From a virus: a DNA stretch of 39,292 bases. The stretch spans positions 1-39,292 of IMG/VR virus record IMGVR_UViG_3300046010_004820. One strand, written 5' to 3'. Below are positions 11,083 through 33,748 of this stretch, piece by piece; the stretch's first letter is position 1, and the number at the start of each line of letters is the position of its first letter. Below the pieces are notes generated by a model. The model ran no database searches. It was not told where the DNA came from and saw only the letters and a list, made by a program, of their open reading frames with translations. A program made the translations under genes and the position numbers.

Positions 11083-12225
11083 ATGGGCTATCTGACCTAT
11101 TTTGACTGCGTAGAGCATTTGATCGTCAGTTCGTTCGGCGGCCCCCAGGACGCCGAGCAGCGGGACATCCGGGTCGCCATTCAGCGGGCGTACCAAGAGA
11201 TCACCCAGATCAGGGACTGGTCCTTCTATCACGTCCACGGGCGGGTTGTGACGGACGCCCCGTACACCGCCGGGACGATTGAGATGACCGACAGCGATTC
11301 GGTCGTCCTCACGGGCGGGAGTTTTGCCACGGCCGGGATGACCGCCGGAAACGCCAAGGACTGGACGATCCGCGTCGGGGCCAGGGCGTTCCCGGTGAAG
11401 TCCTATGACTCCGCCACCACTCTGACGGTGGAACTGGAGAACACGGAGTCCGTTCCCGCCGGCACTGGCTATGTCCTGTACCGCATGGTCTACCCACTGC
11501 CGGAAGACCTGCGGAACATGGACGAGCCTTCCAATGAGTTCTTCTGGTGGTCGGGTATCTATTTGACCCCGGACGAGGCGATGAAGGTGGAGCGTGTCAA
11601 CTACCGCTCCGGGTTTCCTCTGCATTGGACGATCATCAAAGATCCGCACTCCTCGGGCTGGGCGATCAAGCTCGTCGGATATCCGATCAAGCGGGAGACG
11701 ATTGACTTCACCTACCGCCGCAAGGCGCGGGGCATCCGGTATTCGGGCCATGAGACGGTCGCTCGGGCCGGGACGATCTCCGCCAGCAGCACATTGATTG
11801 TTGGCCTTTCTAGCTCCTTTTCCGCCGCCATGGTGGGCTCCATTCTGCGGGTCGGTGACACAACCGCCCAGCCTGGGCCGATTGAGTCAATGAACCCGTA
11901 CGTTGACGAGCGGATGATCACATCTCAGTCCAGCGCCATAGCGCTTTCGGTGGACTCGTCCATCAACATTCCATCCGCGACGAAGTACCTCATCACCGAT
12001 CCCATCGACATCCCGTCGCACATGCACAACGTGATGCTGTCGGGTGCGGAGTACTGGCTGGCGAGGATCCGCGACAACAAGCCCGACAAGGCATTTGCCA
12101 TGTACCAGCGGGATTTGAGGCTGGCCATGGAGCAGGACGTGCTGGCGCCTGCCTCGGGTCGGTCGAAGGAAATCTGGGCCGACCGTGGCTGGCGATCACC
12201 TCTTCAGCCGGATGGTGGAACATGA
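11083..12225 (+). CDS. Head-tail adaptor / tail tubular A-like protein
   Basis: 380 residues. It opens with a helical region (A-E-Q-R-D-I-R-V-A-I-Q-R-A-Y-Q-E-I) followed by W-S-F-Y and a long beta-rich middle, and ends with a helical segment (A-E-Y-W-L-A-R-I-R-D-N). This is the layout of podovirus adaptor (gp11/TTPA-like, SU10-type) proteins that form the ring between portal and nozzle. The middle contains a beta insertion around residues 58-125 (G-T-I-E-M-T...L-T-V-E-L). It lies immediately before the nozzle-like gene, as expected for a neck protein. GAGG precedes the ATG by 5 bases. Confidence 0.7.
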   Translation: MGYLTYFDCVEHLIVSSFGGPQDAEQRDIRVAIQRAYQEITQIRDWSFYHVHGRVVTDAPYTAGTIEMTDSDSVVLTGGSFATAGMTAGNAKDWTIRVGARAFPVKSYDSATTLTVELENTESVPAGTGYVLYRMVYPLPEDLRNMDEPSNEFFWWSGIYLTPDEAMKVERVNYRSGFPLHWTIIKDPHSSGWAIKLVGYPIKRETIDFTYRRKARGIRYSGHETVARAGTISASSTLIVGLSSSFSAAMVGSILRVGDTTAQPGPIESMNPYVDERMITSQSSAIALSVDSSINIPSATKYLITDPIDIPSHMHNVMLSGAEYWLARIRDNKPDKAFAMYQRDLRLAMEQDVLAPASGRSKEIWADRGWRSPLQPDGGT

Positions 12226-12491
12226 TCACCATCGATACCTGGAAGGGTCTGATGTCCAACGGCAGCCCGTACGCTGCCCCGGTTGGTTCGGCCGTGACGC
12301 AGGTCAACTTTCAATGCCGTCGCCCCGGTGAGCTTGCGGCAAGGGGAGGGCAGCAGGCGGTGACCTTCTCGGCGTCGGCCAGCAATTCCATCCCGGTCAT
12401 ACAGATGTTCCGTTGCCCAATCGGCTCTCTGGAAAGTGTGGTCTTCCAGAACTCCTCGGGCGACGTGTACATCGCCAAGGGCTTGCAGTGA
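12222..12491 (+). CDS. Small hypothetical tail-region protein, 89 aa
   Basis: Starts with an ATGA overlap on the adaptor gene and ends in a GTGA overlap with the nozzle-like gene. It begins T-I-D-T-W-K-G-L-M-S-N and ends S-S-G-D-V-Y-I-A-K-G-L-Q. This resembles the first strands of nozzle or TTPB proteins (parameter-like 'G-L' and 'G-D-V-Y' blade motifs). It may be a detached N-terminal piece of the nozzle. Soluble and beta-rich; exact role unknown. Confidence 0.55.
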   Translation: MITIDTWKGLMSNGSPYAAPVGSAVTQVNFQCRRPGELAARGGQQAVTFSASASNSIPVIQMFRCPIGSLESVVFQNSSGDVYIAKGLQ

Positions 12492-15157
12492 CAAAGATTT
12501 TCACTGGCACAACAGCCTCCCGCAATGTTCCAATGACGTTCGCTCGCGGACGCAACGGGGACATCTACGGCGTCAACGGATACGAGCGCGGGATCCGCTG
12601 GGACACCGCTACGGGCACGGCGGAGCAGCTTGGGATTTCCGCACCCACAAGCGCGCCGACGCTTTCGTCCGGTGCTGGCGATGGAAAGTTCTACCTGTCG
12701 TCCATCGATGTCGTTGACGGCGGGTACGGGTACACCACAGAGCCACAGGTGAGCATCATTGGCGGCGTCAGCGCGTCCTGCACTGGCGATTCATCCACGG
12801 ACATCATCACCTGCAACAGCCACGGGCTCGCGGACAACGATCCCGTGCTGTTCACCGCCCTCAGCGGCGGAACCGGGCTGACTGTTGGGCGGATTTACTA
12901 CGCCATGTCCACGTCCACCAACACGTTCAAGGTCAAGCCAACAATCGGCGGCTCGTCGGTCAACTTCAGTTCAAACATCACCGCCGGAACAGTGTCGCTG
13001 CCTCCGGGGCGTGGCGGTCGGAGTGGCGCGCCGGCCAAGGCCAAGGCCAAGATGCTCAACGGCCGTGTCAATCGCATTGTCATTCAAGAGTACGGGACCG
13101 GGTACGACCATGCGCCGTTGATCTCGGTTGGCCCCCCGACGCAGGCAGACAGCGACGGGACTGGATGCGTGCTGACGGTCCAAGTCTCGGGCCGGGTGTC
13201 GGAAATTCAAATCTCCAATCTCGGCTCAGGGTACACCGCTGCGGTTTCCTGCACCATCGGCCCGCCCCCGGCCGGTGGCGAGCAGGCCGTCTGCCGCATG
13301 TGGCCATCCAACAGCCAAGCCGGCGTCATCTACCCCGTGCATCGCGGGTCGGGATACACCTCCACGCCATCGGTCAGCCTGGCCGGCGGCGCGGCAGGCA
13401 GTTGCGTGATGGACTACGAAGTGATCGGCGTGACCGTGACTTCCGGCGGGTCTGGGTATCGGGGACGCCCGCGAGTCGTCTTCTCTGGGGGATTTGGCGG
13501 CGGGGCCGTGGCCGAGGCGGTGGTGGGGCCAGACGGCTCCATCAGTTCAGTGCGCATGCTGCATGGCGGGTCGTACAGGAACCCGCCGACCGCGACCTTG
13601 GTCCCCGATTGGAGTGCCGACCCCAAGGCCGCCGTACTGAAGCCGGTGATGACGGCCGCACTCAAGGGTAAGTACTGGGCTGCCATCCGGTATGTGGACG
13701 ACACCGCCGAAGACGCTGGAGGCCCGATCCCCTCCTCCATTACGGCGCTGGCCGACATCGAACTGGACACCAACGGCGGCTCCATCAGTTGGTCTTGGAC
13801 CAATACCGGCATTGAGACGCGGGCCGACAAGATCGAACTGTGGCGAACAACCGCCGACCAAGGTCTGGTCCTGTACCGCGTGGCGTCACTCAGTCGCTCC
13901 TCAACGTCCTACACCGACACGTTCTCGGACGCGGAACTGATCAACACCGAGCGGACGAACTACGCCGCCATGCCGATCACGCTGCCGAACGGCCAGCTGA
14001 ACGCCAGACGATTTACGCCGCCGCCGCAGAACAAGTCCGCGATAGTGATGTTCCAAGACCGGGCGTGGTATGGCGTCGATGTCCCGGGCAGAAAGTACAA
14101 CGGCTCCACCGATTCCGCCGCCGCCGAGCCGAACGCCCTGTACTTCTCCGAGGCCGACGAGCCCGAGGCCGTGCCTGAATCCAACCAGATCATCATTCAG
14201 GAGAACGTCAAGGGCCAAGACAAGATCACGGCGCTCATGCCCTTTGGCGGCGGCATGGTTGTCTTCCAAGAGCGGCACTGCTACCGCCTGAGCTACGTGG
14301 CCCAGCCGCTCATTGATGCCAATATCACGCTCATCGGCCAGAGAGGCTGTCTCAACCAGCGATGCTGGGACGTGTACGACAACGTGGCCTACGTTGCGGA
14401 CGGGGCCGGGATGTACATGCTGGACGGCGCCAACGCGGTCCCGATCTCGGACGCCATCGACAACTACTGGACCGACGACATCATCCACTTCGGGTCCAGC
14501 AAGTGGTTCTTTGTGCGTGTCGATCCCGTGACGCGGGTAGTCAGGTTCTTCCATTCCGTGTCCGCAGGCCGCCCAGACAGGGCTCTCTGTTTTCATCCCA
14601 TCACCAAGGCATGGTGGGTTGAGGTGTATGCCCAGACGTTTGCCGGGGCGGAATGCCTGACGACCAACGGCCGGCAGCGGATGATCGCAGGAGCCCAGAA
14701 CGGGAACCTGTATCTCTTTGACTCCGGAAGCCAAGACATCAACTCTTCTGGGAATTCTGCGTCCATTGCCTGCCAGTACCGCACGGCCAACATGCCGCTG
14801 TCGATGACCGAAAACAGCCGCGCCGTCAGGGTGCTGTACCAACCAACCACCGCCGACTGCACGCTCTCGCTGGCGTTGCACTACAACGACTCCTCCACTG
14901 CCCGCCCGGCGGCGGTGCGAACGGATCGCGGCAGCGGCTTCACCACGGACGGCGGCTCCAGTGCCACGCTGAACCTCAAGACCACTCGCTCGGCTCTTGG
15001 CGATGCCACTGGATACGCAATCTGCAACTACGCCGGCCGGGTGGACGACAGGTCTTCCGGAGGCGACAGGCACATCGCCATCAACCTGTCGCTGACACGT
15101 CCATCGGGAGAGTCGGCCATTCTGTACGGCGCAGCCGTGGAGGGAGTCGGACAGTAA
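12488..15157 (+). CDS. Nozzle / tail tubular B-like protein with repeat insertion
   Basis: 889 residues from the GTG at 12488. The C-terminal half reads like podovirus nozzle proteins: G-K-Y-W-A-A-I-R-Y-V-D, then M-V-V-F-Q-E-R-H-C-Y-R-L, V-A-Y-V-A-D-G-A-G-M-Y and Y-L-F-D-S-G-S, the propeller blades of the tube through which DNA leaves. Residues about 72-370 hold six copies of a G-Y-x3-P-x-V-x3-G-G type repeat (near nt 12718, 13090, 13217, 13340, 13442 and 13561), predicted as stacked beta turns. This repeat block is an insertion relative to ordinary nozzle proteins and may be an exposed side domain. Confidence 0.7.
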   Translation: MTKIFTGTTASRNVPMTFARGRNGDIYGVNGYERGIRWDTATGTAEQLGISAPTSAPTLSSGAGDGKFYLSSIDVVDGGYGYTTEPQVSIIGGVSASCTGDSSTDIITCNSHGLADNDPVLFTALSGGTGLTVGRIYYAMSTSTNTFKVKPTIGGSSVNFSSNITAGTVSLPPGRGGRSGAPAKAKAKMLNGRVNRIVIQEYGTGYDHAPLISVGPPTQADSDGTGCVLTVQVSGRVSEIQISNLGSGYTAAVSCTIGPPPAGGEQAVCRMWPSNSQAGVIYPVHRGSGYTSTPSVSLAGGAAGSCVMDYEVIGVTVTSGGSGYRGRPRVVFSGGFGGGAVAEAVVGPDGSISSVRMLHGGSYRNPPTATLVPDWSADPKAAVLKPVMTAALKGKYWAAIRYVDDTAEDAGGPIPSSITALADIELDTNGGSISWSWTNTGIETRADKIELWRTTADQGLVLYRVASLSRSSTSYTDTFSDAELINTERTNYAAMPITLPNGQLNARRFTPPPQNKSAIVMFQDRAWYGVDVPGRKYNGSTDSAAAEPNALYFSEADEPEAVPESNQIIIQENVKGQDKITALMPFGGGMVVFQERHCYRLSYVAQPLIDANITLIGQRGCLNQRCWDVYDNVAYVADGAGMYMLDGANAVPISDAIDNYWTDDIIHFGSSKWFFVRVDPVTRVVRFFHSVSAGRPDRALCFHPITKAWWVEVYAQTFAGAECLTTNGRQRMIAGAQNGNLYLFDSGSQDINSSGNSASIACQYRTANMPLSMTENSRAVRVLYQPTTADCTLSLALHYNDSSTARPAAVRTDRGSGFTTDGGSSATLNLKTTRSALGDATGYAICNYAGRVDDRSSGGDRHIAINLSLTRPSGESAILYGAAVEGVGQ

Positions 15158-23700: not shown

Positions 23701-24530
23701 TGCCCCTGATCGGGGATGAGCTTCTGGAGCGGCCGGCAGGGCTCATGGGCCAGAGCGTTCGCGCCATCACCCGTGGTTCGGCGCCCACCGAAGACAACTT
23801 CACCCCCGAATACCTGCGGCAAAGCGCGGCCATTCCATTGCCGGCCGGCATGCTGTTTGGCCTAGACGAAAACTCGCCGCTGCGAAGATACCTCACCAAC
23901 ATCGATCTGCCCTTTGAGTCCGCGATCAACCTGATCACCCCGGGCGTGGGCAACAACCCCTTGGAGGTTGTTGGCAACACGCTGTCCAAGACGGCTCTCA
24001 ACGTCCTCGGGCAGACAAGCCCGCTGATCAAGGGACCTCTGGAGCAGGTGACCAATCGGCAGTTCTATAGCGGCCGGCAACTCAGCGACCTGTACTCCAT
24101 GCTGGAGCAGACTCTGGGTGCGCCGGGCAGGCCGCTTGAGCAGCTGCTGGTAAACCTCCCAGGCGGAAGTCGAATCCTCGGGACGGCGCGCCAACTGGCG
24201 GATGACCGCTTAGATCCATCCGAGAAGTGGAGCAAGCTCGCCGTCAACACGCTGACGGGTCTGAAGTTCCAGGACGTGGACCAAGAGCGGACCAAGAGGC
24301 TGGCGGCGAGAGACATGCTGAACCAGCTGCTCTCCACCACCCCGGGCGTGAGAACCTACGAAAACGTCACCGTCCCCGAGGATGTCCTGCGGGCCATGCC
24401 GAAGGAGCAGCAGGACATGTACTTGCTGTACAAGATCATCCAGGCCGAGGCGGCGAAGCGGGCCCGGGACAAGAAGCGGGCCGAAACAGCACTGGATCCA
24501 CTCCAAGTGCTAGGGGTTCTGGACCGCTAG
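20721..24530 (+). CDS. Giant internal virion (ejection) protein, 1269 aa
   Basis: 1269 residues, the largest protein here and last of the virion block, starting directly after the upstream stop. N-terminal region with A-G-L-G-W-I-L-D-T-P-G-S and A-A-L-D-P-L-T-Y-M-S-F, typical of large phage internal or polyvalent proteins. Two coiled coils at about 522-561 and 582-616. A conserved-looking L-K-P-W-V-F-P-F-Y-S-Y-T-R-G at about 979-992. The C-terminus is helical and Lys/Arg-rich. It corresponds in position and length to T7 gp16-like DNA-ejection proteins; I see no transglycosylase motif. Its end overlaps the convergent integrase by 21 bases. Confidence 0.65.
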   Translation: MARSPLFDLYDPYGILQDQTDLGLSDFEPIGVAPIRRRKPSITDLMPEEQQSSMLRTLASAGSSGLAGLGWILDTPGSMVRGLLSEGPGKALSALWETSDDRVTGRELLRQYGMAGDEDTWGNFAGSLIAEAALDPLTYMSFGMNQLLGAPAKTLVGKAAQKSGMLQDFDLYARNTMNMGRRQGMREATARKILSDMAPDAAETARKRFAQNLSSLKGLEGDAYNAALDQALDAPLARMNRIGIPVYSEGATDLFGKRVGDYVAKVGDDLGEGLMTNPYTGPALTRLNAAVGDADVLGMTDYDRQWEAKELASLRRQRLAKDRRMLGDIQMQADEALRENGYSLNNPIISEALRVYAERPDLVPEEILGLFDLPEMQRLTGFWEGYRDVAPVRAKERGLRLDEMNSRAGTGFFPRQQTAFDVPQAPQWPKGVTPPEGVKRQYTRGNKRVNFSDNFGRSRREDLDVMGGSDTINRMSMDRDLPAALRNADNIQARELLDRWAAQNLSDEGGLYGWMDAKDTKLQDQIDDLTAQKDRLFGRAGGSTEATDKLQAQIDSLKASADEPGYLYEAPPLPKSHPLAEQAARLQEQVRAAEAGGELHRVGELRRQLDSVTAQIPEVARQEWAGSMYSKLADFLRAMDPQHASKNTPIFGQNSFNEMSRYVTGRGRVETDAEFMLKLLKKQAEKLNADGVVGGVNYTAEEALSQLGMKGEDAVSVLERTLGRPLSEVSFPKKFIDDWSRVVDSGRMPPELSPVAEKATDFLRSFKTLALASPSRLSRDSYSGAFAAAMRGSFNPVDWYVGTQLRKGNYDPLVKPMLGGLIPPRLAGLPEYEELLRTNPEEAVRKFLLDAGGEGLGTSTASDEMLDGVANAGMRELYPGGARPEPGDLRRRFWNPDRTLREAARDYNPFAVRGGNGNRNPILEAFDRGAEVTDAGNRYGTYLNQIRQGAAPSEAARIANLTQVDYRPESFTDFERNVLKPWVFPFYSYTRGIMPLIGDELLERPAGLMGQSVRAITRGSAPTEDNFTPEYLRQSAAIPLPAGMLFGLDENSPLRRYLTNIDLPFESAINLITPGVGNNPLEVVGNTLSKTALNVLGQTSPLIKGPLEQVTNRQFYSGRQLSDLYSMLEQTLGAPGRPLEQLLVNLPGGSRILGTARQLADDRLDPSEKWSKLAVNTLTGLKFQDVDQERTKRLAARDMLNQLLSTTPGVRTYENVTVPEDVLRAMPKEQQDMYLLYKIIQAEAAKRARDKKRAETALDPLQVLGVLDR

Positions 24531-25343
24531 CTCTATCGGCGGCACCAGCTGCTCTTGCTGGGTTTCCTCCGCGTACAGCAGCCTGTCGATGTACCGGGAC
24601 TTCATCTTGGGATCCTTATGTCCCAAGTGTCTGGTCGCGTCTTTCCCGTTGATTTCGGCATAAGTTGCCCCTGACCTACGCAGGTACTTGGTGGATCCGG
24701 ATGCCTCGGCCAGTTTGACCAAGAGGCGCATGGCCGCTATCATCCGGCTCCTTCCGATCAAGTCCCCGAAGATGCGGGGCCCCTTGCGGGGGAGCAGAGC
24801 GATGGCACGCATCGCATTGTCGTCCAGGTAGACGACGTGCGGATGGCTGGTTTTCGCCTGCGGGATGAGGATTCTCTGGCCACGGATGGCATCATGTCGA
24901 ATCGCCAGCAAATCGTTGAGACGAAGGCCGGTGCTGTAGGCGGCCAGAATCCACGCCGGCAACAGAACATTCAGCGGGCAGTGGCGCGTACGCCCCGGCA
25001 TCTGCGCTGCCATCGCAAGCAGGCCCCGGATCTGCTCATGGCTCCACGCAATGGGGTTGGGCTCTGGGACTTTGACGCGGCGGAGGGGGCGCACTATACT
25101 GGCGTCCACCAGCCGCTCGGAGGCGGCGAACTTCAGCAGGGAACGGAGCATCCTGCGATGGTTATCTACGGTCGATGGGGCCAGCGTTTTCAGGGCCTCC
25201 GTCAGGTACTGGTCGATCTTGTCGGGCGTAAGCTCCTCGGGCGTCCATGGCAACCTGCGACACAGGACGACCAGCTGCTCAAGGTAGCCGGGCGATCCGC
25301 CGACTCTATTGCAGTACGCAGAAGCGAATTCAACGAGCGTCAT
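24510..25343 (-). CDS. int: Tyrosine recombinase / phage integrase
   Basis: 277 residues from the ATG at 25343, which has AGAGGTG upstream; a GTG at 25352 would add three residues. An N-terminal SAM-like DNA-binding domain (residues about 1-95) is followed by the catalytic domain with R141 (T-G-L-R-L-N-D), K164 (Q-A-K-T-S-H), K219-Y-L-R222 where many relatives have H-x-x-R, H242 (H-L-G-H-K-D) and nucleophile Y251 (S-R-Y-I-D). It joins phage attP to a host attB site. It lacks the extra helix region of integron integrases. It is the only clear minus-strand gene, beside the candidate attP. Confidence 0.92.
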   Translation of the reverse strand: MTLVEFASAYCNRVGGSPGYLEQLVVLCRRLPWTPEELTPDKIDQYLTEALKTLAPSTVDNHRRMLRSLLKFAASERLVDASIVRPLRRVKVPEPNPIAWSHEQIRGLLAMAAQMPGRTRHCPLNVLLPAWILAAYSTGLRLNDLLAIRHDAIRGQRILIPQAKTSHPHVVYLDDNAMRAIALLPRKGPRIFGDLIGRSRMIAAMRLLVKLAEASGSTKYLRRSGATYAEINGKDATRHLGHKDPKMKSRYIDRLLYAEETQQEQLVPPIELAVQNP

Positions 25344-25391
25344 GGTGCGCACCTCTGGTCAGGGGGAATACCCTCCAGAGACGAAGCGCAC

Positions 25392-30766: not shown

Positions 30767-30894
30767 CCGACCGTGACCACTTCGCCGCTGCGGCACTGGA
30801 TCGTTTGCGAAACATATCTGTCTTGATAAGTAACACTAATGAAATTAGGGGCAGCGGCAGCAATGAAAGGACACACCATGCCGAAAGACGTTGA
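30763..30894 (+). CDS. Short phage protein, probably truncated at the cassette array
   Basis: 43 codons, beginning M-T-D-R-D-H-F-A-A-A-A-L-D, the start of a common small phage protein family (M-T-x-R-D-x-F-A-A). After about residue 20 the sequence turns Asn/Ser/Arg-rich and runs into the first attC-like site, with its stop inside that site's loop. The family normally continues for 30-60 further residues of a different kind, so the gene seems cut by the array. Overlaps its neighbour by ATGA. Confidence 0.45.
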   Translation: MTDRDHFAAAALDRLRNISVLISNTNEIRGSGSNERTHHAERR

Positions 30895-30924
30895 TGAGAT
30901 GTCCGCTGCATCGCGTGGTTCTGT
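30852..30924 (+). repeat. attC-like site A (left arm diverged)
   Basis: CAGCGG at 30852-30857 pairs with CCGCTG at 30903-30908, across a 45-base loop; the right arm continues CATCGCGTG to the box GTTCTGT at 30918-30924. The inner-arm and loop layout match site E base spacing exactly (45-base loop, ATG 26 bases after the CAGCGG start). The outer-left box is not recognisable; a TAAC at 30831-30834 is the nearest candidate. Loop carries AAAGGA and an ATG at 30878. Confidence 0.55.
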
Positions 30925-30956
30925 GGTTTGTTGGATGACACAACAGGAGAATCGAA

Positions 30957-31232
30957 ATGATCTACAACGCAATCAAGCGGCGAGACAACCTCATCTCGGG
31001 GCTGCGCGACTCGCAGGAGTTTTTCTGCAATGCCATGAACAGGCAGCATGGCAGCCTCATCGACTGGATGAGGTGGCAGATTGAGAAGCGCGAGACGCGG
31101 CTGGAAACCATAGGGCTCATCGCGAAGGCAGGCGGCGAGCCACTGACCGCAGATGCCGCCAGGACGGCCGGCGAGGTGGCGGCATTTCAGGCCGTGCTGG
31201 CGTACATCAACAATGGATGGAAGGCAGAGTAG
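30957..31232 (+). CDS. Cassette gene 1: hypothetical helical protein
   Basis: 91 residues from an ATG with CAGGAG upstream. Mostly helical and charged (M-R-W-Q-I-E-K-R-E-T-R-L-E-T), with an Ala-rich C-terminal helix (A-A-R-T-A-G-E-V-A-A-F-Q-A-V-L) and no Cys cluster or membrane segment. It lies between attC-like sites A and B, its TAG ending 3 bases before the outer box of B. No family recognised. Confidence 0.6.
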   Translation: MIYNAIKRRDNLISGLRDSQEFFCNAMNRQHGSLIDWMRWQIEKRETRLETIGLIAKAGGEPLTADAARTAGEVAAFQAVLAYINNGWKAE

Positions 31233-31235
31233 CCC

Positions 31236-31291
31236 ACAGAACACGCAGGATAAGCGGCGGCCCCGCCGTCCGCTTCATCCGCTGGTTCTGG
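31236..31291 (+). repeat. attC-like site B
   Basis: Outer box ACAGAAC (31236-31242) and GTTCTGG (31285-31291) pair. Inner arms GGATAAGCGG and CCGCTTCATCC pair with one extra unpaired base on the right arm. The centre GGCGGCCCCGCC forms a further stem. Starts 3 bases after the stop codon of cassette gene 1. Confidence 0.65.
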
Positions 31292-31340
31292 GGCGAATCG
31301 AACGTATTGGAAAACCAACGGAAAGCGACGGATTACGAAT

Positions 31341-31553
31341 ATGACTCGGGCGACGACAAGTCGGGGAAACGTGTCGCAAAAAGCCAAGCCTCGCTACACA
31401 TCGCGGCCTGTGTTGTGGGGGCTGCGACGAAGGGGCGGGCTGTACGAGCCAATGGTTTTCGGCACCAAGCAGGCGGCGTCGTTTCACGCAGCAGCGGCGA
31501 TTGACGGGCTGACGGTGGTGGCGCTGCACGCCAAATCACGGGCGAGCAAGTAG
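31341..31553 (+). CDS. Cassette gene 2: small basic protein
   Basis: 70 residues, strongly basic at the N-terminus (R-G-N-V-S-Q-K-A-K-P-R-Y), then V-L-W-G-L-R-R-R-G-G-L-Y-E-P and an Ala/Val-rich end (D-G-L-T-V-V-A-L-H-A-K-S). No ribosome site is obvious. The TAG stops 2 bases before site C. Nucleic-acid binding is possible from charge alone; no family recognised. Confidence 0.5.
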   Translation: MTRATTSRGNVSQKAKPRYTSRPVLWGLRRRGGLYEPMVFGTKQAASFHAAAAIDGLTVVALHAKSRASK

Positions 31554-31555
31554 CC

Positions 31556-31606
31556 ACAGAACGCCAGCGATCAGCGGCGTCAGTCCGCTGCATCGCTTGG
31601 TTCTGG
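31556..31606 (+). repeat. attC-like site C (clearest copy)
   Basis: ACAGAAC (31556-31562) and GTTCTGG (31600-31606) as outer boxes. Inner arms AGCGATCAGCGG and CCGCTGCATCGCT pair fully except for one unpaired base, exactly the extrahelical-base pattern of attC. Loop CGTCAGT. Total 51 bases. The left inner arm fits the general attC pattern A-A-C-G-Y-Y...A-G-C-S-G-C closely. Confidence 0.7.
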
Positions 31607-31629
31607 GAGCGTAGTGAAAGGAGTTGACG

Positions 31630-31857
31630 ATGCAGACAGCAAGGCGATGGGCCTCCGCAAAGAACAAGCGGCTACCGCCACTGATGAAGTCGGTGCTGGT
31701 GAAGATCGACTCTGCGTGGGGGGCGTCGGGCGAGCGAGTGACGATTGGCTGGCGAGCAGAGCAAAAGCGTTGGATTGTGTTGACGGCGGTTGGGTCGGAG
31801 GATGCAAAGGTTACCCACTGGATGCCGCTACCGGCCCCGCCAACGGACGGCAAGTAG
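31630..31857 (+). CDS. Cassette gene 3: DUF551-like protein
   Basis: 75 residues from an ATG with AGGAG at ideal spacing (an in-frame TTG lies at 31624). The C-terminal V-T-H-W-M-P-L-P-A-P-P is the signature ending of DUF551 proteins, small phage or prophage proteins of unknown function, and W-I-V-L-T-A-V-G fits the strand before it. The N-terminus is basic. It ends 3 bases before site D. A phage-type gene inside a cassette unit is notable. Confidence 0.65.
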   Translation: MQTARRWASAKNKRLPPLMKSVLVKIDSAWGASGERVTIGWRAEQKRWIVLTAVGSEDAKVTHWMPLPAPPTDGK

Positions 31858-31860
31858 TCC

Positions 31861-31945
31861 ACAGAACGGCTGCATTGAGCAGCCCGAGAAAGGACGTTGA
31901 TATGACACAGGACGCTGACGGGTCTGCTCCAATGCTTGGTTCTCA
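31861..31945 (+). repeat. attC-like site D (long loop)
   Basis: ACAGAAC (31861-31867) pairs with GTTCTCA (31939-31945) with partial match (AGAAC/GTTCT). Inner arms GCATTGAGCAGCCC and GGGTCTGCTCCAATGC pair except for two extra bases. The 34-base loop (31886-31919) contains AAAGGA and the ATG at 31902 of the next gene. The arm sequence differs from sites A, C and E, yet keeps the same structure, which argues for selection on fold. Confidence 0.6.
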
Positions 31946-32231
31946 GGAGCCTGTCGGGTGGGTTGTACGGGACATCACCGGAATACACTCAAGGCTGCAC
32001 GCGAACCGTGAGGACGCTGAGGCTTTCGCAAACTGCCAGCCAGTTGGGGAGGTTGTGCCGCTTTTCGCCGCACCAGCACTGACTGACGAGGAGCGGGAGG
32101 CGGTTGGCTTCGGCATGAACTCGCTGGATGTGGCTTGCAGCCGAATGCAACCAAAGATTTACGCGCAAGAGATTCGGCATCTGGAGAAAGCGTCAGATGC
32201 GCTTCGCGGCCTACTCAAGCGACTTTCCTGA
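31902..32231 (+). CDS. Cassette gene 4: phage-type small protein starting inside attC
   Basis: 109 residues. The body (E-P-V-G-W-V-V-R-D, then P-V-G-E-V-V-P-L-F-A-A-P-A-L-T-D-E-E-R-E-A) is a familiar phage protein type, with a helical C-terminus. The only reasonable start is the ATG at 31902 in the loop of site D, with AAAGGA upstream. The first 13 residues (M-T-Q-D-A-D-G-S-A-P-M-L-G) are therefore encoded by the recombination site, and the crossover point falls inside the reading frame. The TGA overlaps the outer box of site E. Confidence 0.65.
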   Translation: MTQDADGSAPMLGSQEPVGWVVRDITGIHSRLHANREDAEAFANCQPVGEVVPLFAAPALTDEEREAVGFGMNSLDVACSRMQPKIYAQEIRHLEKASDALRGLLKRLS

Positions 32232-32317
32232 GAACGCCAGCGATCAGCGGCATCGAACACAGGAGCGACCATGCCAGACGAGGTTGATGAGATGTCCGCT
32301 GCATCGCGTGGTTATCA
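32229..32317 (+). repeat. attC-like site E (long loop)
   Basis: Outer box TGAGAAC (32229-32235), which includes the stop codon of cassette gene 4, and GTTATCA (32311-32317). Inner arms GCGATCAGCGG and CCGCTGCATCGC pair with one extra base. The 45-base loop has AGGAG and the ATG at 32271. From GTTGATGAGATG to the GTT box it is identical to site A over about 31 bases. Confidence 0.65.
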
Positions 32318-32576
32318 CATGAAACGAAACATTGGGGCCGAACTGGCCGCTCGCATGATGCACCTAAATGAAATGCTTGCCAATGGCGAAAGCGTTGGGG
32401 CTATCAGTCGGGCCGACGTTGATAGCCCGCACCCTGTCGCATCTACACCCGATCCGCACGCTACACCGGGCGATGGTACATCGCAGGGCGAGTGTATGGA
32501 TGGACGCTCGTTGCGAGAGTTCCACAGGCGTCTAATGGCGATGGGTGGCGTACCGGGCCGCATCTGGGAAGAGTGA
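32271..32576 (+). CDS. Cassette gene 5: hypothetical protein starting inside attC
   Basis: 101 residues from the ATG at 32271 in the loop of site E (AGGAG 6 bases upstream), or 85 from the in-frame ATG at 32319, just after the GTT box. The leader M-P-D-E-V-D-E-M-S-A-A-S-R-G comes from the site itself. The body is helical then disordered (D-S-P-H-P-V-A-S-T-P-D-P), with a C-terminal basic helix (L-R-E-F-H-R-R-L-M-A). The stop codon overlaps a lone TGAGAAC box. No family recognised. Confidence 0.55.
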   Translation: MPDEVDEMSAASRGYHMKRNIGAELAARMMHLNEMLANGESVGAISRADVDSPHPVASTPDPHATPGDGTSQGECMDGRSLREFHRRLMAMGGVPGRIWEE

Positions 32577-32635
32577 GAACCATCTAATTATCCCCACCTG
32601 AGCCGGGCCTAATGCCGCTATTCGCAGGATTATCC

Positions 32636-32767
32636 ATGGCTGGAAACATGATCGAAGAACTCCCTGACTCAAAGCTCCCCTGGTGGGACAACCACTACGA
32701 GGGCACGTCCTCCGACGATCCCGAGGATGGGTATCCATATGACATTGGAACGAAGGTTCAGGAATGA
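32636..32767 (+). CDS. Small acidic protein, 43 aa
   Basis: 43 residues, M-A-G-N-M-I-E-E-L-P-D-S followed by L-P-W-W-D-N-H-Y and an acidic D/E/Y-rich end. ATGA overlap with the next gene. It marks the return to ordinary phage coupling after the cassette array. Function unknown. Confidence 0.45.
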   Translation: MAGNMIEELPDSKLPWWDNHYEGTSSDDPEDGYPYDIGTKVQE

Positions 32768-33408: not shown

Positions 33409-33624
33409 AAAGCCGGCAGAACGAAAGCCAGGGCCCCGAGACAGTAACTGATAGACAGCGTGCGTCATTTTCTGGTTGTCCCGCACGGAAATCTCAGCAC
33501 CAGCATAAAGAAACGCCTGCCTACGCAGGAGCGGCCAGTCCGCACAAGTCAGCTAGTCACCGCGCGAAACCCCGGGCAACGGGCTGGTAGTTGATCCAGC
33601 GAAACCCCCACGTCCCGGTCCATT

Positions 33625-33698
33625 TGCCGAGAGCCTAACGATAAGGCGTTGACTGGCAGCCCCAAGGGCTTACCGACAGGCGTTCCTGCCTCTCGGCA
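33625..33698 (+). ncRNA. Cloverleaf-like structured RNA candidate
   Basis: A 9-bp outer stem, TGCCGAGAG (33625-33633) with CTCTCGGCA (33690-33698), encloses three hairpins: GCCT/AGGC (about 33633-33647), AGCCC-CAA-GGGCT (33658-33670) and CAGG-CGTT-CCTG (33677-33688). Length (74) and shape resemble a tRNA, but the D-loop GG, a pairing anticodon arm and the T-loop are absent. Either a tRNA-like relic or an unrelated folded RNA. Confidence 0.35.
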
Positions 33699-33748
33699 TG
33701 GGAGGGGGTCTGTTCTGGATTCGCGAATTTGGAAAGCGACAACGCATT

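Follow-up and report, generated by a model that had tools for sequence, protein, structure and literature searches.

A probable integrase-less integron with attC-like sites and an attI-like end in uncultured tailed phages

Clusters of attC sites without an integrase have been described by Qi et al. (2023) in 17 phages, for example Tetrasphaera phage TJE1 and Polaribacter phage P12002L, the number of phages reported being 21 (PMC9892861). In that study, five of six tested phage sites were recombined by IntI1, and the recombined junctions fit GTTRRRY; a term search of its text found no mention of inverted gene polarity or of start codons within attC (PMC9892861). In class 1 integrons, ORF-11 of attI1 places a Shine-Dalgarno sequence and a start codon inside the recombination site, which helps to translate cassettes lacking such signals of their own (PMC8876359). 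The original prediction for the locus analysed here, an attC cassette array inside a phage genome, had held that such arrays have no common precedent in tailed phages, a claim contradicted by the 17 phages of Qi et al.; the present array is an unusually widespread variant of an integrase-less cluster already known (PMC9892861). Searching the open-access literature, we found no report of inverted polarity across whole arrays, of start codons in attC loops, or of a large phage lineage with attI but without integrase.

The array resides in an IMG/VR virus record of 39,292 bases, the whole of which was analysed and is referred to as the window. Matches to terminase, portal, virion protein, exonuclease VIII, Erf annealing protein, helicase and RusA resolvase identify the window as a tailed phage. 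Isolated phages contain no more than distant relatives of its terminase, and BLASTN of the array region against them returned zero matches. The array phages are a large uncultured group, with hosts that are probably planctomycete bacteria.

In the interval 30,852–32,580, the window has five attC-like sites on the plus strand, four complete and one a half site, and a small ORF comes after each of them on the same strand. Five same-orientation repeats with AAC/GTT boxes had been predicted here; four are complete, but the first (30852–30924), which lies at the array's distal end, amounts to a half site, in which the inner arm, the 3' arm and GTT are present and the outer 5' arm and the AAC box are missing. 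This half site folds no better than shuffles, and its loop region contains ATG codons with a frame open through GCA TCG CGT GGT TCT. The first cassette body (30921–31239) carries an ORF of 91 aa (30957–31232) without family match, and between its start (GTTCTGTGG) and its own end (CCACAGAAC) 9 of 9 positions agree. Site 2 (31234–31291; AAC-to-GTT core 31240–31287, loop of 12 nt) precedes an ORF of 70 aa without family match (31341–31553), and site 3 (31554–31606; core 31560–31602, loop of 7 nt) precedes the DUF551 ORF at 31630–31857. DUF551, already named in the original prediction, is the sole recognisable family among the window cassette ORFs (PF04448, E 2e-7, computed on ORF 31624–31857); this ORF has a probable ATG start of its own with its own AGGAG.

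From the two remaining sites, ORFs start within the loop itself. Site 4 (31859–31945; core 31865–31941, loop of 41 nt) holds a Shine-Dalgarno-like AAAGGA and an ATG at 31902, from which an ORF (31902–32231) reads MTQDADGSAPMLG and then SQEPVGW...; site 5 (32227–32317; core 32233–32313, loop of 45 nt) holds AGGAG and an ATG at 32271, from which a second ORF (32271–32576) reads MPDEVDEMSAASRG and then YHMKRN.... Neither product has a family match. As in the first cassette, the start of cassette 4 (GTTCTCAGG) matches its own end (CCTGAGAAC) at 9 of 9 positions. Just before four of the sites there is a stop codon (TAG at 31230–31232, 31551–31553 and 31855–31857, TGA at 32229–32231), as had been foreseen. 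The four complete sites form 10–11 of 11 stem pairs with a single unpaired C in the 3' arm. On folding, sites 2 and 3, with short loops, reach z-scores of -4 to -5, and the complete long-loop sites 4 and 5 reach about -1 to -1.6. No attC-like family was reported when the window was searched against Rfam at E values up to 5. The array closes with an attI-like end (32572–32636), where a final AAC (32578–32580) is followed by CATCTAATTATCCCCACC ... GGATTATCC; the array does occupy its predicted interval, but this end, at the interval's very edge, had been missed. Past it, at 33500–33720, the window has a stretch with GCCTAACGATAAGGCGTTGAC.

The window array belongs to a family of sites that is widely distributed in IMG/VR. 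A scan with 18 bases of the 3' arm retrieved at least 119 stretches, to which three further scans added loci, giving 258 viral loci (2.45 Mb), some of which share one contig or come from near-identical phages. In these loci, a structural finder located 555 high-confidence sites, as compared to 4 in dinucleotide shuffles; a generic AAC/GTT hairpin finder was dropped because its output was too noisy. At least one high-confidence site was present in 226 loci, a lower bound because the loci were recruited by patterns of this same site family, and one array (L031) has 15. Loop lengths fall mainly into classes of 5–7, 11–15 and 41–48 nt; some long loops, as at L031 4975–5056, lack a start codon and enclose another inverted repeat, nested within them. 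When sites were picked by geometry only, stem pairing was bimodal, with 502 places at 9–11 pairs and 129 at 0–8. The stems covary: at pair 9, which occurs as CG, GC, TA and AT, 98% are paired against 55% expected under independence. With the extrahelical base left free in the search, 165 of 172 sites with full pairing had C there. The repeats are thus attC-type sites, as originally proposed: they are imperfect hairpins in which L'' and L' form the stems and the extrahelical base keeps to one side, and arrays of at least two of them, lacking an integron integrase, correspond to the definition of a CALIN. The hairpin geometry claimed at the outset stands, but the sites depart from the R boxes RYYYAAC/GTTRRRY, since GTTRRRY fits only 4 of the 555 sites on the 3' side and 1 on the 5' side, the GTT/AAC core itself being imposed by the search design. 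With R boxes that are almost never GTTRRRY, the arrays may have been missed until now, and because tools tuned to this motif may overlook them, phage integrons are maybe far commoner than the 21 phages reported (PMC9892861). A bacterial scan for short-loop sites gave 22 places, about half like ordinary attC and the remainder like chance. On a bacterial MAG contig (L130, 139–2200), the same attC and a 263-aa ORF occur twice, 1268 bases apart, as a duplicated cassette.

Circular cassettes make a specific prediction: the bases after GTT at a cassette's start should complement the bases that precede AAC at its end, and no match is required between both R boxes of a single array site. The first five bases after GTT matched the same cassette's end at frequencies of.93,.96,.90,.83 and.72, and their own site at.72,.80,.46,.29 and.40, the random level. 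Among informative cassettes, 152 matched their own end and 7 the downstream R box of their own site, which bears out the proposal that small genes were collected as cassettes; R'' is thus complementary to R' of the same circular cassette, cut between G and TT. Chromosomal integrons of planctomycetes that have IntI served as a positive control, and all 10 cassettes compared showed the same signature. Among 34 pairs of homologous genes whose surroundings differ, the site upstream was the more similar one in 27. Crossover mapping on the 26 closer pairs (16 clusters) revealed that identity, against a background of.66, climbs from.48 to.86 on crossing the upstream AAC and drops from.94 to.61 on crossing the downstream one; therefore, the mobile unit is the attC plus the gene following it. 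Judged from these alignments, the crossover at the 5' AAC end (gene orientation) is the classical position, between G and TT, of an inverted attC. The exchange visible in cassette signature and crossover mapping also speaks against repeats never tied to gene exchange, one of the outcomes that the original prediction had named as its refutation. Between loci L052 and L100, a 285-base difference has breakpoints close to AAC ends, and cassettes more than 95% identical occur in differing neighbourhoods and phages. As a counter-case, some near-identical genes have dissimilar upstream sites (e.g. bodies 99% and sites 43% alike), so that exchange at the GTT side or homologous recombination, the phages having Erf, also happens. 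Independent swapping of leaders and gene bodies by GTT crossover was ruled out as the main mode, given that the crossover maps to AAC.

The orientation of the sites differs from what had been assumed. The arm first read as the usual attC left arm is in fact the reverse complement of the classical right-hand half: reverse-complemented, the phage site reads CCGCTGATCGCTGGCGTT, like that half, and the sites point the other way. The classical half consensus used for this comparison reportedly goes back to Stokes et al. in 1997. By a crude longest-ORF measure, 180 of 220 phage genes run in the same direction as the site and 40 in the opposite one, compared to 2 same and 7 opposite in planctomycetes; in bacterial loci with the same stems, the majority of site-adjacent genes are oriented opposite to the phage genes. 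Phage cassette genes thus run opposite to the usual attC polarity, which looks new.

Long-loop sites seem to provide gene starts. Of 158 long-loop sites, 114 have an ATG whose frame, the same one in each, stays open through the R box, as do none of 73 short-loop sites, and 104 of these 114 have a Shine-Dalgarno-like motif. The second frame of long-loop sites has no ATG, and in the third another ATG occurs in 78. An open frame of at least 60 codons comes after 77% of long-loop sites in the ATG frame, versus 22–24% in the other frames. The next frame lacks a start of its own in 86 of 110 leader sites; after short-loop sites, the next gene has its own start in 63 of 68 cases and the frame is startless in 1 of 68. 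In total, 208 distinct fused ORFs (at least 70 aa) read from the attC ATG into the gene. Long attC loops carrying a Shine-Dalgarno motif and an ATG in frame with the gene look new. Changes in the leader at codon positions 1, 2 and 3 numbered 3258, 4657 and 4755, with no clear third-position excess; as strong purifying selection on the leader peptide is not apparent, the start and frame, and not the peptide, seem to matter. Pfam matches among 75 fused ORFs comprised DUF551 (8), C5 DNA methylase (4), N6/N4 methylase (3), HNH (3) and Mom (1), a cargo that suggests counter-restriction and other accessory functions.

In gene orientation, an AAC marks the array ends, and the conserved sequence after it is mostly AACCAGTG(T/A)TT.T.CGG..CC..ATAA; the window end represents a sister class (AACCATCTAATTA) that includes L002, L013, L082 and others. 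Scored with a matrix of the phage ends, the sequence next to an intact intI of one Planctomycetaceae genome reached 22.6 and a second genome 12.7, and no shuffle came to 7. Among the planctomycete intI loci examined, only 2 had a closely matching attI, and in the first matching genome (Planctomycetaceae) the cassette genes point away from attI. A scan based on nothing but the attI motif recovered new loci, most of which, where enough upstream DNA is available, have attC and matching R boxes there. Based on its position at the array boundary and its sequence resemblance to planctomycete attI, the conserved end is a putative attI-like insertion site.

An intact integron integrase was not detected: none of 90 array phage records, most of them incomplete contigs, scored above the TIGR02249 cut-off. 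One of the 90 (G473, IMGVR_UViG_3300008120_000140; locus L372) has a truncated integron-integrase N-terminal fragment in a 159-aa ORF (12184–12579, minus strand, E 1.8e-21), perhaps the relic of a lost intI. Given that 72 of 392 Planctomycetota genomes have an integrase above the cut-off, against none of the phage records, host IntI acting in trans is the most likely enzyme. The main rival holds that the phage's own tyrosine recombinase, in the window a 280-aa protein at 24510–25352 on the minus strand, moves the cassettes in a self-sufficient system with a non-IntI enzyme. It draws on a Phage_integrase match in 24 of 40 array records, nearly always single, and on catalytic conservation, as the recombinases, mostly of about 300 aa, form one family with invariant R, K, R, H and Y and mostly a TGER or AER motif. 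We consider this rival unlikely. The window protein could be ruled out as IntI, TIGR02249 being unmatched, the position of the recombinase relative to the array varies, and several array contigs of at least 28 kb lack it. Moreover, its strong matches in three Planctomycetota genomes have no arrays in their flanks, the attI-like end is similar to its counterpart on chromosomes that carry intI, and the protein is most simply a lysogeny integrase.

Alternatively, the arrays could be dead relics, captured once from host integrons and now changing only by homologous recombination between similar sites, as the missing integrase and the off-consensus R boxes would allow. This is quite improbable in light of the nearly identical cassettes found in different phages and neighbourhoods, and random R-box pairing within sites, combined with pairing kept within cassettes, suggests continuing precise exchange. 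That the hairpins are regulatory RNAs (terminators or translation-coupling elements) spread by homologous recombination would suit their place after stop codons, the start signals in the long ones and the phage-encoded Erf and exonuclease VIII, but it predicts neither cassette ends that match cassette starts over their own sites, nor AAC breakpoints, nor an attI-like end common to intI loci, and with the near-constant extrahelical C also against it we give it hardly any credence.

We therefore regard the locus as a likely integrase-less integron, made up of an attI-like 3' end and an attC cassette array in a tailed phage, with cassettes exchanged by integron-type recombination. Sequence comparison is the basis for site structure, cassette boundaries, crossover, attI-like end, intI absence (90 records), polarity and in-frame ATG. 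With somewhat less confidence, we favour a widespread phage lineage with a bare platform of attI and attC array run in trans by host IntI, in which inverted long-loop attC sites supply the ribosome-binding site, the start codon and the first 13–19 codons. In the likely reading of the locus, the array lies in the phage's early region, the host being probably a planctomycete, and cassettes, each an attC plus the gene after it, are exchanged where a folded attC presents its AAC/GTT (R box), with the crossover at the 5' AAC end. The host's chromosomal IntI would act during infection or lysogeny, transcription should proceed from an upstream phage promoter towards attI, and the attC-loop start signal would allow each cassette to be translated wherever inserted. 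If this is true, phages are routine users and carriers of integron cassettes, a gene-exchange network links them to planctomycete chromosomes, and a recombination site doubles as a translation start, making a cassette translatable at any insertion point; the DNA methylase and Mom-like cargo hints at swappable counter-restriction.

Compared with known systems, the arrays share with the phage CALINs the attC clusters without integron integrase in tailed phages and the methyltransferase cargo, but differ in extent: the related site family here spans at least 226 loci, against 17 phages there (PMC9892861). Like attI1 ORF-11, they combine a recombination site with translation start signals; in attI1, however, these act by coupling and on the first cassette only, whereas the phage starts lie in attC loops array-wide and are fused in frame (PMC8876359). 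To the planctomycete chromosomal integrons (IntI, TIGR02249) they are tied by the attC geometry AAC-N4-stem...stem-N3-GTT, the cassette signature and, in two genomes, a similar attI. In contrast to the phage arrays, these integrons carry intI, have R boxes mostly closer to consensus, and direct most cassette genes away from attI, whereas the phage genes run towards it.
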